Positions 15,890-27,650 of a stretch of 64,000 nucleotides of DNA are shown here, one piece after another. Numbering within the stretch: position 1 is the stretch's first letter; every line of letters starts with the position of its first letter. The position numbers and the translations under genes are program-made. The notes beneath the pieces are model-generated. The model saw only the letters and a program-made list of their open reading frames with translations. It was not told where the DNA came from and searched no databases. The stretch is taken from the NCBI GenBank assembly GCA_015039365.1, contig WION01000091.1, forward strand, positions 1 to 64,000, read 5' to 3'. Source of the DNA: Amanita rubescens. Its lineage: Eukaryota > Basidiomycota > Agaricomycetes > Agaricales > Amanitaceae.

Positions 15890-16790
15890 GTTCAGAGGCA
15901 TTGTGATTGCCTGCATCAAGTCCGCCTGTTGTTATGCTCATGTGGTCGGAGATAACAAGTGCCATGCCGGCATATTCCGATCAGACCCGTTGCGCACGTC
16001 AAGCCATGTCCGAGTTCGATTGTGTGTGTTTGTTCGCATCATCCATATCTGGTACGCTCACCCCTGCTCTCGCCCAGGTACGATGTTATGCAAAGGCTCC
16101 AGCATTTTCGTCGCGCTGACGCGTTATATACGCATATAACTTCAAGTCTAGGGAAGGATTTGACCGGAATCCTGTGAAACGCGGTCATTCAAACGACTCC
16201 CAAGAAACGCAAGATTCGCCATTTGGTTCCAGCCTTGCGACGCCTCTCGATCCGGATGACGTTAGTCTGAGGAACACCTCGACTTCCGCAGGCTCGGCGT
16301 TGCGGTTTCTCGCTGGGGCTGGGGACGCCCCTCTCCTCGACTATTTTAAATTCAAGAGAAATGGTTCGCCTATCTTATCGATGGCCCGCAATTTGAGCTC
16401 TGAGGGCAAGTTAACTGCTGAAGACATTGCCTCGGATTACACGAATGCAGGAACATCGCGTGTATGCAGCGCGATCGGTACACCCGCCGAGGACACCCTC
16501 GTCCGCAAGAAGGTAGGCACCTATGAATTACACGATTCCGTCCTAAATACCGGAGATGATAGAGCATATACAACTTGCCTAACCCGCCTATCGGTGTACA
16601 AGCCCGGCATTTTAGGCGCTCAGCTTCAGAGAGTTCTTCTGTGTTCGACCCGATGGACGACACGCGGGACGCTTGTATCTCGGAAGATAATGGGACGCAT
16701 ATACTACTGGTTGATTCCTCAGAGACAGAAGACTGCACTCCTGGCGACGACTTCGCTTTCGCCGATGAAGATCTACTATTTTGCCACAAA
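15890..16790. repeat. Segmental duplication, matches 20690-21580
   Basis: The two segments are nearly identical over the signal-like exon, intron and main exon of the two-TM gene. The left copy contains about 20 extra bases (aagccatgtccgagttcg) before the shared tgtgtgtttgttcgcatc. The match stops near 16785 where the left copy jumps into monooxygenase 3' flank (matching 28095 onward). Confidence 0.85.
16006..16790 (+). pseudogene. Truncated copy of the two-TM membrane protein gene
   Basis: It carries the first two exons and part of the third exon of the gene at 20840-22029, with only a few substitutions (for example FKFKRN for FRFKRN). After the codons for ADED the sequence passes at about 16780-16790 into DNA that lies downstream of monooxygenase copy 2 (ccacaaaacaaacaac, matching 28096). 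Both membrane segments are therefore lost. Relative to the arrangement at 21-28 kb, a single deletion of about 6.5 kb, the interval that holds the GTPase gene there, would create this junction. The frame continues for a few dozen codons into the non-homologous DNA. Confidence 0.72.
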
Positions 16791-16943
16791 ACAAACAACA
16801 AAACAAATTCTGATTAAGAGGTTGCAGCGAGAGGAAGTAAGGACTTCCATAATCTATCAGCATCTTGTACATTCTATAGAACCATTTATATCATTACATT
16901 GATTCAATATCCGATCACACTCTCTGCAGGGGATGGCAGGTCA

Positions 16944-20839: not shown

Positions 20840-22029
20840 ATGTCTGGTACGCTCACCCCTGCTCTCGCCCAGGTACGATGTTATGCAAAGGCTCCAGCAT
20901 TTTCGTCGCGCTGACGCGTTATATACGCATATAACTTCAAGTCTAGGGAAGGATTTGACCGGAATCCTGTGAAACGCGGTCATTCAAACGACTCCCAAGA
21001 AACGCAAGATTCGCCATTTGGTTCCAGCCTTGCGACGCCTCTCGATCCGGATGACGTTAGTCTGAGGAACACCTCGACTTCCGCAGGCTCGGCGTTGCGA
21101 TTTCTCGCTGGGGCTGGGGACGCCCCTCTCCTCGACTATTTTAGATTCAAGAGAAATGGTTCGCCTATCTTGTCGATGGCCCGCGAGTTGAGCTCTGAGG
21201 GCAAGTTAACGGCTGAAGACATTGCCTCGGATTACACGAATGCAGGAACATCGCGTGTATGCAGCGCGATCGGTACGCCCGCCGAGGACACGCTCGTCCG
21301 CAAGAAGGTAAGCACCTATGAATTACCCGATCCCGTCCTAAATACCGGAGACGATAGAGCATATACAACTTGCCTAACTCGCCTATCGGTGTACAAGCCC
21401 GGCATTTTAGGCGCTCAGCTTCAGAGAGTTCTTCTGTGTTCGACCCGATGGACGACACGCGGGACGCTTGTATCTCGGAAGATAATGGGACGCATATACT
21501 ACTGGTTGATTCCTCAGCGACAGAAGACTGCACTCCTGGCGACGACTTCGCTTTCGCCGATGAAGATCTGCTATGGTTCCTTCGTCCCGAACATTTTTCT
21601 TCTCTGGATATAAAAGCATCGATTACAAGAGTCATTTGCTTCGTTCCTTGGTGTATCTGTGTTGGCGGAACGATGCTTCTATGGCCCGATAAACTGGAGC
21701 AGGTCGCTTTCGAAGCCGGATATATGGATTCTACGCAAGGCATACGCAGGTTTGCGCACTGGGCGGACGTAGGCCATCAATTCGTTATGATATTTTTGGC
21801 GTTCCTTGCAACTGCTCTCTGGGCTTTACCCGTAACTGTCGGTGCTACTCTTTTCGTTGGTCTCGCCACCCGTTTCGGATATGTTTGGCGGGGATTCCCA
21901 GTGGACCACTCTATGCCCTTGGGAAATGATGACCGGCAGTCACTATACCTTTTGGCCACAGTAGGGCGAGACTTGATGGAGAAATCGGTCCTTGCCAAAA
22001 CCGAAGCAGGGTTTGTTATTATCGCGTAG
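20840..22029 (+). CDS. Two-TM membrane protein of unknown function, complete copy
   Basis: Spliced exons are 20840..20872 (MSGTLTPALAQ), 20942..21307 and 21427..22029; all three are multiples of three and the joined frame is open. The first half is Ser/Asp-rich and looks disordered (NDSQETQDSPFGSS, MDDTRDACISEDN). The second half has two hydrophobic segments, one around VICFVPWCICVGGTMLLW and one around FVMIFLAFLATALWALPV, with a basic-acidic tail ending GFVIIA. The intron after RKK is 119 nt, longer than usual here, and its acceptor (cttcagag at 21426) is the least certain part. The start uses an ATG that the truncated copy lacks (ATG versus ATA). I do not recognise the family. Confidence 0.6.
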
Positions 22030-22518: not shown

Positions 22519-25500
22519 TCACTGGGTCACATGGGTAGTAATCTGTTCATAGAGAAATGTATACAAATCATCCTCATCAGAGGGTATAGACTTTGAAGTC
22601 ATCTGAATCTTCAGGTTCTCTGCACAGTCTTGTGTCTTGAACTGGTCCAAGGCATCCAAGATTGAAGCCTGGATTGGCTTCTTGATAAAGAATGATAGCT
22701 TGGCAATGATATTGATTGCTTTTGGATATTAGCCCAGCAAGTAAATCCAACATAATTGAACACATTACCAACTAGGATTTGGCAAGCTGTGATCTGATCA
22801 CAAGAGGGTTAATTGCATATTGTATATCAAAGATATGTAGGTCTTACATCCTTGAAAAAGCTTGTTTTTGCATCTCCAAATGAAGAGAAAAGCTCAGACT
22901 TTGAATGATGATGGGCAATACTCTTCAATTGAAATTTAGATGTGAACATACCAGCTATGTAAGAGATGAATTAGCATGTTCATTAAAACCATTAATAATA
23001 TCATTTCTCACCTAAAGGGGTGAAAGAATAAATCTGTCACAAAGGGGTGTAAATAATATCTTACAATCTATGAATATACAGCAGTAAAATCAATGAAGAA
23101 AAAAAAATATGAGTAGGCTAGTCTTTACTTACTTTCTGATGAGTTTACACATGTCACTAAGTTGTACACTTTGGGAAAAACTTGATCCACTTACCTCCTA
23201 TTGACAATGGATGAGATATTCATGCCCAAGTGTGTGCATTGCCACTCACTGCCTGTTAATCATGTGCTGAAGTTACCTATAAAACAAGAATTGTGGCACT
23301 CACTGCCTAACACCATGCAATGCAGTATAATGACACTGTCTAGGAGAAAAAATACAGTGGCACTCACTTCCTTTTCCAGGTGATAAATTGTAATAAGAAG
23401 TTGGCATGACCGTATTGTATTACTCACTTCCTGATGGTCATGGGATGAGATGATAAGATATAAGTCTCAAGAGAATTTTGTCTAAAATCACTTACCACCT
23501 ATTGGACATTGGATTGGAATCAATTAAGACTGTCCAATAAAAATATGATATTGCTTACTTCCTGTTGATGAGGATTCACATTTGATAAGGTTTCCAAAAT
23601 GACAGAATCACTTACTTCCTACTCCATCAATGCAATGTAATACTATGATGAGACAGCTGAGGAAAGGAATATGGTGTCACTCACAAACTGTTCATGATAG
23701 AATTGAATGTGATGACATTAATTGGCAGAATAAATGCATCATCACTCACAAACTGACAATTATTACATACAGTAATGAGAATGTGCAGAGATCAATGCTG
23801 GTGTCACTCACTGCCTGGTCATTAGTATGGGATAGGAGTTTGCCTGGTAAAAGATATATGTTTCGTACCATCTATTGGTTATGGATGAGACTTGGACTAC
23901 ATAAGTGGAAATATGTGCAATATGACTTACACTCTTTTGGTCATGCAATAAAACTATGTAGAAAAGGAAAATGCATTGTTACTCACTTTCTGAAGGTCAA
24001 TCATGTCATGAGCTGTTTAAGTTGAAAGAAAGAGGATATTCAGTGATACACACAAGCTTTTGTCATGAGGTGAGTGTGTTTAACAAAAAAAGAAAGGTAT
24101 AGTGGTGCATACTTGCTGTTCATTGTATTGCAATGAGATGAACTGAGGAAAATGTAAAGTATCACTTACCATAGTGGCTCCCTATTGATCTGTTGAAAGA
24201 TCACCTGGTGGGGAAATGTCCAATTTGACTCACATGCTGTCATGTATGATGTGAGATGTGAAAAAACTGCCTTTCAGAAAAAATTGATAACACTTACTTG
24301 CTATTGGTCATATTACAGTAAAAATGAATCAATAGAAATATGTTACAGCATTCCTTACATTCTGTTGCCATGGGACAAAATGAGACAAAACTATTTGAAG
24401 AAAGATTCCTTCTTACCACCATCTGTTGGAAATGCAACGAGACATAATGGGAAAACTTGCCAACCAGTGTCACTGCACCACTTACATACTGTTCACAATG
24501 CACATTGCTTAACACAACACAAGGCGGCTATCATTCACTATCACTCACTCTCTGTTTGATTTATGACATGACTCAGATAAACCTATCTGAGAGATATGGA
24601 CTGATGCTCACTGTCTGTTGGTCATGGGATAAGACCATCTGCCATAAAGTTTATGCTACCACTCACTCTCTGTTGGTCAATGTATGAGATATGATATTAT
24701 AAATGAGGCTCAGAGTTACTTACTGTCTGTTGTTAATAGAATGAGACTAAAAAAGAAAAATATAATGTACATATCACTGACTGTCTATGACCAAAGAAAA
24801 TCATAAAAACACGAGGTTAGGCATGATGTCACTTACAAACTGTTTGCCATTGAATGATATATTCTTTAGACTAGCTAAGGAGATGTGCATAACATCACTC
24901 ACTTTCTGTAGACCACAAAATTTGGCAGATGAGATTGCCTGACAGGAATAGATGCAGCATTGCTTACATCCTGTTGGAATAAGATATGGAGACTGCCTGA
25001 GAGATCACAGCCCACTTACAGACTGTTATGACAGTGTATGCCAAGATCTTTGAGGTTGCAGTAGAACAAATCTACAGTACCACTCACAAACTGTTGGCTC
25101 ATAGTCTGAAAACTGCCTGACCACCACAAATTGTATGCTTACAAGCTATTCATCATGTGGCATGGGAACAGTGTTTCATGGGAAATAGCAGTGTGACTCA
25201 CTGTCTATTAGTCACAACATTTTAATCAGTGAGGCTGCCATCTAGCAAACAGTTGGTGTTACTCACTTTCTATTGGTGATATACATGATGAGATGGCCTG
25301 GAAAAAATGTGCAGATTCACTTACAAACTATTGTGATCAGATGAGGTCAGGAGTGAGTGCTTGGCAGAGACTCTATTGGTTAATACTCACTTCCTCCTGG
25401 TCATGAAATGAGATCAGGTGTTCTACAATAAAGGGTTACATAAAAACCCACTGTCTATTTGGCATAATGTTGAACACCCAAGAGAAATGTACAAAGTCAC

Positions 25501-27650
25501 TCACTGGCTGTTGGTCATGAAATGGGATGCAGTCCAAGTGATTAAAACAAAGTATGCTCACCTGCTATTGACAATAGGATAAAATGAAATGAGATCCCTA
25601 CACAAAACAGGGTAAACTTACTGTCTGTTAGTCACACAGTGACTCAAATGAGATGCCAGATGTTCCTAGCAGTGAAATGTACAGCACCACTCACTGCCTT
25701 TTAGTCATGTGGCATCAGATGCAAAGCCTCTGGTAGAGAATGTGGGTATACTCACTTTATTCAGTTGCAAATTAGGATATGCATGGTGCATCTTTGCAGA
25801 AAAAAAAGTGATACTTACAGTCTGTTGGAATTGAGATAGCATGATAATGTGTGGTGTGGAATATAACACACTCTCTATTTGTTGTACAATGCTTATGTAA
25901 TCAAATGGCCTATCAGAATATAATTTTGCTCACTGGAGTTCTGGTGGGGCCATGGATGAAAAGCATGGCAGAAAAATGGGCCATGTCACTCACAAACTGG
26001 TGATGGTAAGATGAACACTTAGTATCATGGTCATGGCTACTTCTTACCCACTGTTATCAATGTCATTAGATAACTGTAGAAAATGTTGCAGTTTCACTCA
26101 CATTCATTTCATTATCCTGTTTTCAAGATGTTGTTGCCTATCAGACCTTCCTACAGGTCAAGGGAAAAGTGTAACATACATCCTGATTATCAGTCAACCA
26201 AGCATTTGTTTTGGAAAATCATACTCACGTCCTATTTCAATTTTCCCAACAGTCCATGCATCTTTGCACAAATGGAGCTCACATTTCTGTCTACCTGATT
26301 TTTACTTAGCTTTGTAGATCCACATCACAATATTTTGCAAACCTACCCAATAATGGGGAAACTTGCTAAGAACCATGCTCATGACTGTACTCCATGAGAG
26401 TTCACTTTGAGCCAAGATATGTCTAAGGGTAGTTAATATCTGAAATTAACATTCTGAATCTGATCCTCACTGAAGTGCAGTATTTGAACAAAGATCAAGA
26501 TTGTTCATTTGTGTTGAGACAAAGAGTTCTTGTAGGCTACTATCATCAATTGCTTCTGCTGTCACTGTAGCTAATTCAGGACAGTCCTTCTCTGGCAAAT
26601 CCATATCTGCCAAAAATCATTACTTTTGCAACAAGGATTATTTGTTTTCCCTCCCTTCCAATTGTACATATGCTTTTGGAGGATGTTTAGTGTTCAAAAC
26701 CTTGGGCAGATAAATTTGCTGGAAAGCAGCATTAGCATTTATCCTAGCTTCACCCCACTTATCTTTATCTTCTCCTGAATCACACAATTTTCCATATTCT
26801 GCAATGATTTGGCCATCAAATTTAGTGAATATAGTCACCAAGGGGACTATTTAGATGAAATTTATATGTATGTAGACTGCAGTTGGCCTTGGACAGGACT
26901 TACCCTTCCCAGTTCCCTTGCTGAAAAATTCAAGTTCTGCAGATAAGAGAGGGCGAGGGCTGTCCATGGGTATACAATACCTATGAAAATTCATTCATTC
27001 ACAGCAATGCAAAGAACCAGAATAAAATACCAAATTGCATGTAGCTGATCTCTTAGCTCAATTGAAGCAGAACGCTTTTCAATGAATTTCCAAACAAGCT
27101 CCAGCTCCTCAGTACCACCAGATTCAAATCCTTGGGAATCATGGAAGACAAAGTTGCTGCCTTTATAAGTAATCTGGTGCTCAATCTCATGGAGACCCCT
27201 CTGAAGATTGTTGCAATCCATGAAAGCATCCATATTCCTTTATTTGACTCACTTCAGCAGATGGCATCAAATGTGTTTTAGAGGGTTCCAGTTTTTCACC
27301 TAAAAATCCTGAATGTCACAACAGTAGAAGCCTTTATTTTAGCTCAGCTTACCATTCTGGTCATATATCATGGAGATTGTCCCCCGTGCCACACTACAAA
27401 CCTTCTCAAGAATGGTTGTTTTTCCAGCATTAGCCCTCCCTATGACAAGGATACGAAAATAAGGGCATCTGTATCGATCTTTAAGTGTCCTAAGCAAGAA
27501 GTCTGCATCGGTTAGCAAGTCAAATTCAGATCCAAACAACTGATGATAAAACTCACTGGACACCTTGCCGGAATTGTAGTTTAACTTTGAAATCTCTGCC
27601 AGCCTTGATTGACGACTCGGATGTGCATCGGTGATCTCCGAGTCTGCCAT
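22519..27650 (-). CDS. P-loop GTPase-like protein gene with ~51 single-codon exons
   Basis: Large exons give a G domain: 27353..27650 (P-loop GRANAGKTT), 27253..27299, 27031..27200 (FHDSQGFESGG, the DxxG motif), 26904..26980, 26655..26846 (TIFTKFDGQ, the N/TKxD motif), 26471..26606, 26347..26422 (ends KFPHYW) and 26283..26294. From 26231 to 23065 the transcript strand reads YAG-NNN-GTRAGT again and again: about 51 three-base exons plus one of 15 nt and one of 12 nt. The 3' exons 23012..23033, 22848..22954, 22769..22793 and 22519..22718 encode SFTPLAGMFTSKF, HHHSKSELFSSFG, ITACQILVA and SFFIKKPIQASILDALDQF. Summed, the exons give 514 codons with the frame kept and no stop among the triplets. 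Weak points are a GG donor at 26654 and poor acceptors for triplets 25934 and 25756. The role is unknown; such G-domain proteins are common in agaricomycetes. Confidence 0.68.
23065..26231 (-). repeat. Intron/single-codon array inside the GTPase-like gene
   Basis: Triplet positions include 26229, 26180, 26048, 25994, 25872, 25819, 25695, 25622, 25562, 25505, 25452, 25391, 25325, 25267, 25202, 25143, 25088, 25020, 24968, 24903, 24837, 24782, 24724, 24667, 24612, 24549, 24486, 24420, 24359, 24298, 24234, 24113, 24054, 23987, 23931, 23869, 23812, 23750, 23685, 23616, 23559, 23496, 23428, 23368, 23304, 23250, 23195, 23133 and 23065 (lowest base of each). Almost every one has AG immediately before it and GTGAGT/GTAAGT (or GTATGC, GTGTGT, GTCAGT) immediately after. 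Introns are 48-70 nt and share a loose 3' end resembling CATGACCAACAG but otherwise differ, so this is no young minisatellite. Confidence 0.8.

Follow-up and report, generated by a model that had tools for sequence, protein, structure and literature searches.

The 64,000-nucleotide (nt) stretch of the Amanita rubescens genome analyzed here (assembly GCA_015039365.1, contig WION01000091.1, positions 1 to 64,000; hereafter the window) carries on its minus strand a gene for a septin/IRG-like G-domain protein, in which a long internal segment is divided into an array of exons that mostly consist of a single codon. The main parts of the gene are as follows.

22519..27650, minus strand: whole gene, from the ATG at 27650 to the TGA at 22521-22519; it contains the one-codon-exon array, and its septin/IRG-like G-domain protein ends in a helical part (splice model, homologues, sequence)
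26347..27650, minus strand: 5' exons of ordinary size, G domain up to KFPHYW (splice model, homologues)
27414..27440, minus strand: P-loop GRANAGKTT of the G domain (sequence; Pfam matches below curated cut-offs)
22899..26346, minus strand: codon-exon array, with 55 introns, 47 exons of 3 nt, five exons of 6-15 nt and two zero-length junctions
23065..26231, minus strand: core of the array as delimited in a preliminary description of the sequence, from the first triplet GAC (26231-26229) to the last triplet ATT (23067-23065), holding 46 of the 47 one-codon exons
22952..22954, minus strand: final one-codon exon, CTG (Leu) (splice model)
22519..22898, minus strand: 3' exons, helical C-terminal region SELFSSFG...THVTQ (splice model; predicted model of the relative P0003)

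The gene and its codon-exon array

Between positions 26500 and 23000 of the minus strand, the acceptor-donor pattern YAG-N3-GTR(A/T)G(T/C) occurs 37 times, whereas spacers of 0-2 and 4-12 bases in the same pattern occur 0-2 times each; the remainder of the window contains three spacer-3 sites on both strands together. The preliminary description, which had reported an intron after nearly every codon, therefore holds in this respect, and its count of about 51 one-codon units is close to the 47 three-base exons of a splice model guided by the homologous protein P0001. In this model, the array (26346-22899) contains 55 introns, all of the GT..AG type and 46-121 nt long (median, 56 nt), and the remaining inner exons measure 12, 15, 6, 6 and 12 nt, with two junctions lacking any exon; the two introns of approximately 120 nt may hide further units. 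Because the exon upstream of the array closes on a complete codon, each three-base exon corresponds to one codon. The absence of stop codons among the triplets was borne out (0/47), and three stop-reading relaxed matches were rejected as overlap or register artefacts, each beginning 4 nt after a true unit. The frame, likewise described as preserved, stays open in ab initio splice models run at three priors, which gave 65, 68 or 70 exons and coding lengths of 485, 484 or 457 codons (stop included) depending on the prior, with 45 three-base exons at each. One 3' exon of the preliminary description, reading SFTPLAG, is probably intronic, as intron-free homologues read ..REIL-PELFSVFG and the window aligns to them as K|I||L|SELFSSFG.

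The encoded protein carries the TRAFAC-type GTPase motifs GRANAGKTT and FTKFD, which correspond to GxxxxGKT and TKxD of P-loop (TRAFAC) GTPases. Its Pfam match to MMR_HSR1 lies below the cut-off of that family; Pfam searches gave no match for the relative P0061 or for a 223-residue downstream piece of a NACHT-type gene, and nothing above cut-off for the other queries. Among 262 first-look candidates, 150 matches to the P-loop exon of the window were scored for the G-domain family, and an exon identical to it over 96 residues is present on three other contigs. IRGs stood first among the full-length structural matches listed, at approximately 10% sequence identity and with a high root-mean-square deviation (rmsd), and septins, EngB and dynamin-like G-domain families were also among the matches. 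The array-encoded segment was modelled with low confidence and partly as loop, and it is predicted to separate the GTPase domain from the helical domain as a flexible, variable insert.

Genome-wide occurrence and joining of the codons

The array had been presented as one unusual gene segment; the array itself stands, but its status as a single-gene oddity does not, as the architecture is genome-wide. Across the 75.7-Mb A. rubescens assembly, the two-unit pattern YAG-N3-GTRAGT-(40-70)-YAG-N3-GTRAGT gave 5,766 matches, compared with 4 for a reversed-pattern control, which rules out an oddity confined to the window. The two-unit pattern with a 4-nt exon gave 9 matches (63 in the reversed control), and a 6-nt exon followed by a 3-nt exon gave 66 (control, 2). 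The second triplet was TAA or TGA in 3 of the 5,766 pairs, against approximately 507 extrapolated from base frequencies (the search covered these two stops), and no stop was found in 360 sampled array triplets, against approximately 34 predicted from position-wise base frequencies. This sample was drawn from 14 loci after the near-identical L045, L062 and L063 had been dropped; L057 and L058 overlap, so that one triplet entered the count twice. Chance or an ordinary satellite as the source of the pattern is ruled out by the spacer controls and the reversed-pattern control. Counting against it as well, the three-unit pattern occurs in just 1 and 6 stretches of viral and prokaryote collections, respectively; six of these seven consist of one triplet repeated, and the seventh of two triplets. 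Third positions of the 360 triplets are A at a frequency of 0.52, T at 0.41 and G at 0.067, and never C, and NAG codons, each a potential second acceptor, are scarce (8/360).

As the strict pattern detects 23 of the 47 window exons, about half of those modelled, the genome probably holds one-codon exons of the order of ten thousand, by rough estimate. With 308 strict pairs in 17 fetched stretches, the 5,766 pairs would correspond to about 300 arrays, again a rough figure taken from a non-random sample and counting near-identical contig copies. Several contig pairs, among them C31/C220, C46/C124 and C117/C778, are almost identical over kilobases, with 3 differences in approximately 6.2 kb outside the array units of C31/C220; both nuclei or duplicated contigs are probably represented in the assembly, and the genome-wide counts thus include copies. 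Arrays are present in two GTPase groups and in NACHT-type genes. The NACHT-type call at L059/L056 and L060 was made by the motifs GPAGSGKST and IDGLDEC, which are presumably NACHT motifs, and the window gene has no NACHT. Intron patterns resembling those of the NACHT-type arrays were also seen on contigs C557, C746 and C605, as pattern matches only.

Joining of the codons was assessed by protein-to-genome spliced alignment of short intron-free sequences of relatives from JGI (contigs of approximately 1-1.9 kb), which, to judge by their form, are likely assembled transcripts (cDNA). P0061, with z values calculated against 20 shuffled proteins each, matched 56 of the 57 one-codon exons at both L053 and L054 across 61 introns (z 19.3 and 20.3). 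P0003 matched 41/49 at L039 (z 20.0), and at L055, P0123 and P0124, with short prefixes added, matched 45/52 (z 29.9) and 41/52 (z 26.2), and P0004 matched 29/52 (z 12.0). In both the L053 and L039 alignments, an intron or units close to the beginning of the array went undetected, and the alignment passed through a stop at that point. This codon-by-codon agreement indicates that the exons of these sister genes are joined into one reading frame, making it near certain that one-codon exons are spliced together in order.

For the window gene, the protein-collection matches contained distant relatives only and no close intron-free relative; the best agreement was 12/47 with P0001 (z 8.0), followed by P0002 with 10/45 (z 5.0), P0003 with 10/48 (z 3.9), P0016 with 11/46 (z 1.3) and P0121 with 10/46 (z 7.3). 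Homologues lacking residues between KFPHYW and SFTPLAG, or transcripts skipping the whole array, had been named as observations that would overturn the proposed splicing. P0001, P0002, P0003 and P0016 do carry residues from KFPHYW onward to the C-terminal part, and the intron-free sister sequences include the array residues; the exception, P0028, is probably a mis-modelled array. Elsewhere, the array start of L041 and L042 (W-F-E-x-G-K-K) agrees with that of P0015 and P0037 (z 4.8-7.5). Weaker alignments were obtained for P0016 (z 0.1) and P0001 (z 4.5) on L043 and for P0121 (z 5.6-8.5), and P0015 and P0004, when aligned to L041/L042 from a bad anchor, reached z 0.9-1.2. L048 was rejected as the P0061 locus, loci L045-L048 contributed only to triplet counting, divergence estimates or the checking of anchors, and a region search with P0003 returned P0003 alone.

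Existing gene models treat the arrays differently. The A. rubescens model P0053 (the gene at L039) ends within the array, P0006 also stops at the array, and the annotated P0028 runs almost directly from FPHYW into the C-terminal part. Such models, together with tandem repeats of 64-72 nt in young arrays, would fit an array that is a satellite or one large noncoding intron. However, stop avoidance, conserved splice sites and the codon-by-codon match to intron-free sequences all speak against this explanation, which is already contradicted for the sister genes and is scarcely credible overall. At the P0028 locus (contig C650), the FPHYW and C-terminal parts lie 1.9 kb apart in the genome, and the gap (L071, C650:814200-816700) contains 16 scattered unit-like sites on the coding strand, compared with 0 on the opposite strand. 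Thus, the P0028 model probably treats an array as an intron, and L071 is apparently an eroded array. In the JGI sequences P0056 and P0057, the place of the Amanita array is taken by low-complexity segments that are highly charged or rich in His and that possibly represent arrays in other mushrooms.

The intron-free sequences also bear on the idea that single-codon exons are freely skipped, so that alternative splicing derives very many variants from one gene. In the models of the window gene and L053, array exons have lengths divisible by three, so that the frame would survive the skipping of any of them, and a NAGNAG site is present in the window array. However, nearly all array codons appear in order in the intron-free sequences (57 exons for L053 and 49 for L039), which points to constitutive inclusion and renders an isoform generator improbable.

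Conservation and turnover of the arrays

Comparison of the window gene with its copy on C10 revealed changes at 220 of 2,698 intron sites together with 63 gapped bases, but changes at just 4/141 triplet sites and no gap in the triplets. The acceptor AG is retained in 55/55 introns and the donor GT in 54/55 (one GC), and in the C10 copy a 3-nt piece is missing from one of the longer exons, as is the sixth base of two donors. The C386 copy differs at 107/2,698 intron and 5/141 triplet sites, with AG in 55/55 and GT in 54/55 (the same GC), and the C772 copy at 5/2,760 and 0/141. Splice sites and frame are thus maintained among these copies, with residue identity maintained less firmly. In more distant paralogues, triplet divergence equals or exceeds intron divergence: L041/L042 gave 0.36/0.32/0.20 for triplets against 0.20 for introns, and L043/L045 gave 0.37/0.26/0.11 against 0.23, with uncertain register in both comparisons. 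Near-identical pairs show few changes in either class, namely 0/87 triplet and 0/1,148 intron sites for L043/L044, 0/135 and 1/1,847 for L053/L054, and 0/60 and 8/832 for L045/L046, the last with large gaps elsewhere. Codon constraint between copies is mixed.

These comparisons are relevant to a neutral ratchet, in which efficient intron definition would hide each extra codon and intron from selection and the arrays themselves would be functionless. Weak conservation of codon identity between copies of the window gene fits this view, as does the low-confidence, partly loop-like prediction for the array segment. However, the 55 introns of the window gene retain their splice sites across 8% intron divergence, array residues are identical to likely transcripts of relatives at 41/49 and 45/52 positions, and the examined arrays (few genes) sit in receptor-type families. 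Such a neutral ratchet is considered rather unlikely.

Young arrays indicate how the units change. In the array L056 (C321), one 68-nt intron is present 21 times, letter for letter, following TAT, GAT, TTT, GGT and AGA, and the same intron recurs 18 times in L060 (C223), following TAT, AGA, GAA, GGT and GAT. Besides a run of seven GAT units, there is a run of five ACA units, each with the same distinct intron variant in a 72-nt unit, and a four-unit block including length variants is present twice in L060. The association of ACA with its own intron variant and the repeated block imply that codon and intron duplicate together. Between the L056 and L060 genes, 4/583 flanking, 13/1,654 intron and 21/96 triplet sites are changed (register uncertain). 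P0001 and P0002 are identical at 273/286 positions before the array and 87/92 after it, compared with 32/60 within it, where there are also 17 gaps. Identical introns beside different codons, combined with the array-only divergence of P0001 and P0002, make ongoing recombination through interchangeable introns, which would keep the codons diverse, a well-supported candidate for the engine of array change. Similar introns occur within arrays and among paralogues, and three gene groups have differing intron types.

An introner-type origin, in which near-identical introns were copied singly into an older coding stretch after each codon so that only introns multiplied, would directly yield the identical introns with differing codons of young arrays, and introners are known in fungi (PMC4457414; PMC9860276). 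However, the codon and its intron variant travel together in the five ACA units, the four-unit block was duplicated as a whole, and array length differs between P0001 and P0002, which are otherwise 95% identical. Moreover, insertion alone leaves the exact 3-nt pitch unexplained. This origin is judged quite unlikely, less so than free exon skipping but more so than the neutral ratchet.

Several side observations concern the young arrays. L056, L060 and L057 each use a small codon set, mostly with one codon per amino acid (TAT GAT GAA AGA ACA CTT GGT TTT in the NACHT-type genes, for example), and these sets resemble a founder alphabet of units. The NACHT-type genes (L056/L059 on C321 and L060 on C223) have near-identical NTPase parts and quite different codon arrays downstream. 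Within the 3-nt array of L056 (C321:97000-101000), near 99870-100026, three consecutive 4-nt exons sum to 12 nt, and the frame is thereby regained.

Three further splicing features of the window gene were recorded.

25562..25564, minus strand: CAG triplet that can be read as a one-codon exon (Gln) or as part of an intron, located at a NAGNAG acceptor (relaxed pattern, splice model)
22955..23064, minus strand: abutting introns 23064-23012 and 23011-22955 meeting at AG|GT, either a zero-length exon or a recursive-splice-like site
26607..26654, minus strand: G-domain intron with donor GG instead of GT (sequence, splice model)

Zero-length exons near the array end also appear in the models of L039, L040, L041 and L043/L044, and not in that of L042. 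An AG|GT zero-length junction lies near the array end of L053 as well, and the P0061 sequence continues straight across it. The G-domain intron at 26654, which corrects an earlier reading in lacking a GT donor, has GG in all five copies compared (window gene, L009, L010, L011 and L013), representing either a rare non-canonical donor or a subfamily-wide defect. The branch-site motif YTRAY shows no enrichment in the introns of the window gene (18/55 vs 17.9 in shuffles), and its count in L053 is 29/61 vs 20.2. The motif TRAC, picked after the YTRAY outcome was known, is enriched approximately twofold near the intron 3' end (15/55 vs 6.9 in the window, 14/61 vs 7.7 in L053 and 11/54 vs 6.6 in L039). 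Outside the gene, two open reading frames (ORFs) on the plus strand of the window (16174-16902 and 20969-21613) are near-identical across approximately 190 residues (MKRGHSNDSQETQDSPFGSS...), indicating a local duplication.

Comparison with known systems and proposed mechanism

Schistosome micro-exon genes (MEGs) have very short exons of 3-81 bp, mixed in size, with introns of up to 5 kbp, and comprise 35 Schistosoma mansoni genes for secreted proteins (PMC10526429). The Amanita arrays share very short exons divisible by three (47 in the window and 57 in L053), although within the array only and not across the whole coding sequence. They differ in having dozens of consecutive 3-nt exons, window introns of 46-121 nt and thousands of units, and their products are GTPases and NACHT-type genes. 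In the protein of the window gene, the N-terminus is followed by a G domain. The window gene is not classed as a MEG because its introns (median, 56 nt) lack the length that marks that group. No report was found in an open-access library under 'single-codon exon' or under Amanita with microexon or introner, and, as far as is known, a genome in which several gene groups carry more than 40 one-codon exons in a row represents an architecture distinct from MEGs.

In the fungal NLR genes het-d and het-e, concerted evolution by recombination keeps the WD40 repeat units alike while single hypervariable codons are under diversifying selection (PMC12222747). The Amanita arrays similarly contain tandem, homogenised units, and NACHT-type genes are among their carriers. 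However, the homogenised unit in het-d and het-e is a translated WD40 repeat, whereas in Amanita it reads as an intron and the variable codon alone would be translated. These repeats are the nearest parallel to the mechanism proposed below. Like introners, the Amanita introns form families of near-identical copies multiplying within one genome; unlike introners, which occupy scattered sites in many genes, they are tandem, with one codon between them and with codon and intron co-duplicating. Plant and vertebrate microexons are mostly single and lie between ordinary exons, whereas the Amanita runs exceed 40 with few longer exons between. Such microexons can be as short as a few nucleotides and are often missed in annotation (PMC8831610). 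The zero-length exon (AG|GT) that recurs near array ends recalls recursive splicing and stwintrons, but the Amanita arrays are tandem rather than nested and leave one codon at each step. At the protein level, the predicted G-domain fold would be shared with IRG GTPases and septins, at approximately 10% identity and high rmsd to IRG structures.

Introns that are short and have strong GTRAGT donors and YAG acceptors belong to the type recognised by intron definition. In the explanation favored here, the ordinary spliceosome would remove each short intron in this way, with exon size hardly mattering, and the unit of codon plus intron would duplicate and recombine unequally, so that arrays grow, shrink and reshuffle. 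Since the introns of young arrays are interchangeable and almost every exon is one codon, each gain, loss, move or exchange of a unit would alter one residue while leaving the frame intact. In old arrays such as that of the window, the introns would have diverged with splice sites and frame kept. The encoded segment may provide immune-type (self/non-self) proteins with a rapidly changing surface for recognition or interaction, a role suggested by analogy because arrays occur in an IRG/septin-like GTPase family and in NACHT-type genes. This combined explanation, comprising the window array, joining of the codons in sister genes, duplication and recombination of units and a recognition-surface role, is assigned a probability of roughly 0.78. 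A bolder version is offered tentatively, namely that the variable segment of an immune-type receptor is stored one residue per exon and that recombination through introns acts as an in-frame, codon-level diversity generator across hundreds of gene copies.

Collectively, these results point to a spliceosome able to join more than 50 single-codon exons in a row, which puts intron definition and the fidelity of splicing to an extreme test, and suggest a new route by which proteins may evolve residue by residue without frameshift. Some database gene models terminate at an array (P0006 and P0053) or pass over it (P0028), which leaves databases without parts of the proteins of an expanded fungal family. 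Should the arrays differ from strain to strain, they might represent the fungal equivalent of hypervariable immune receptors and offer a directly testable origin for self/non-self specificity.

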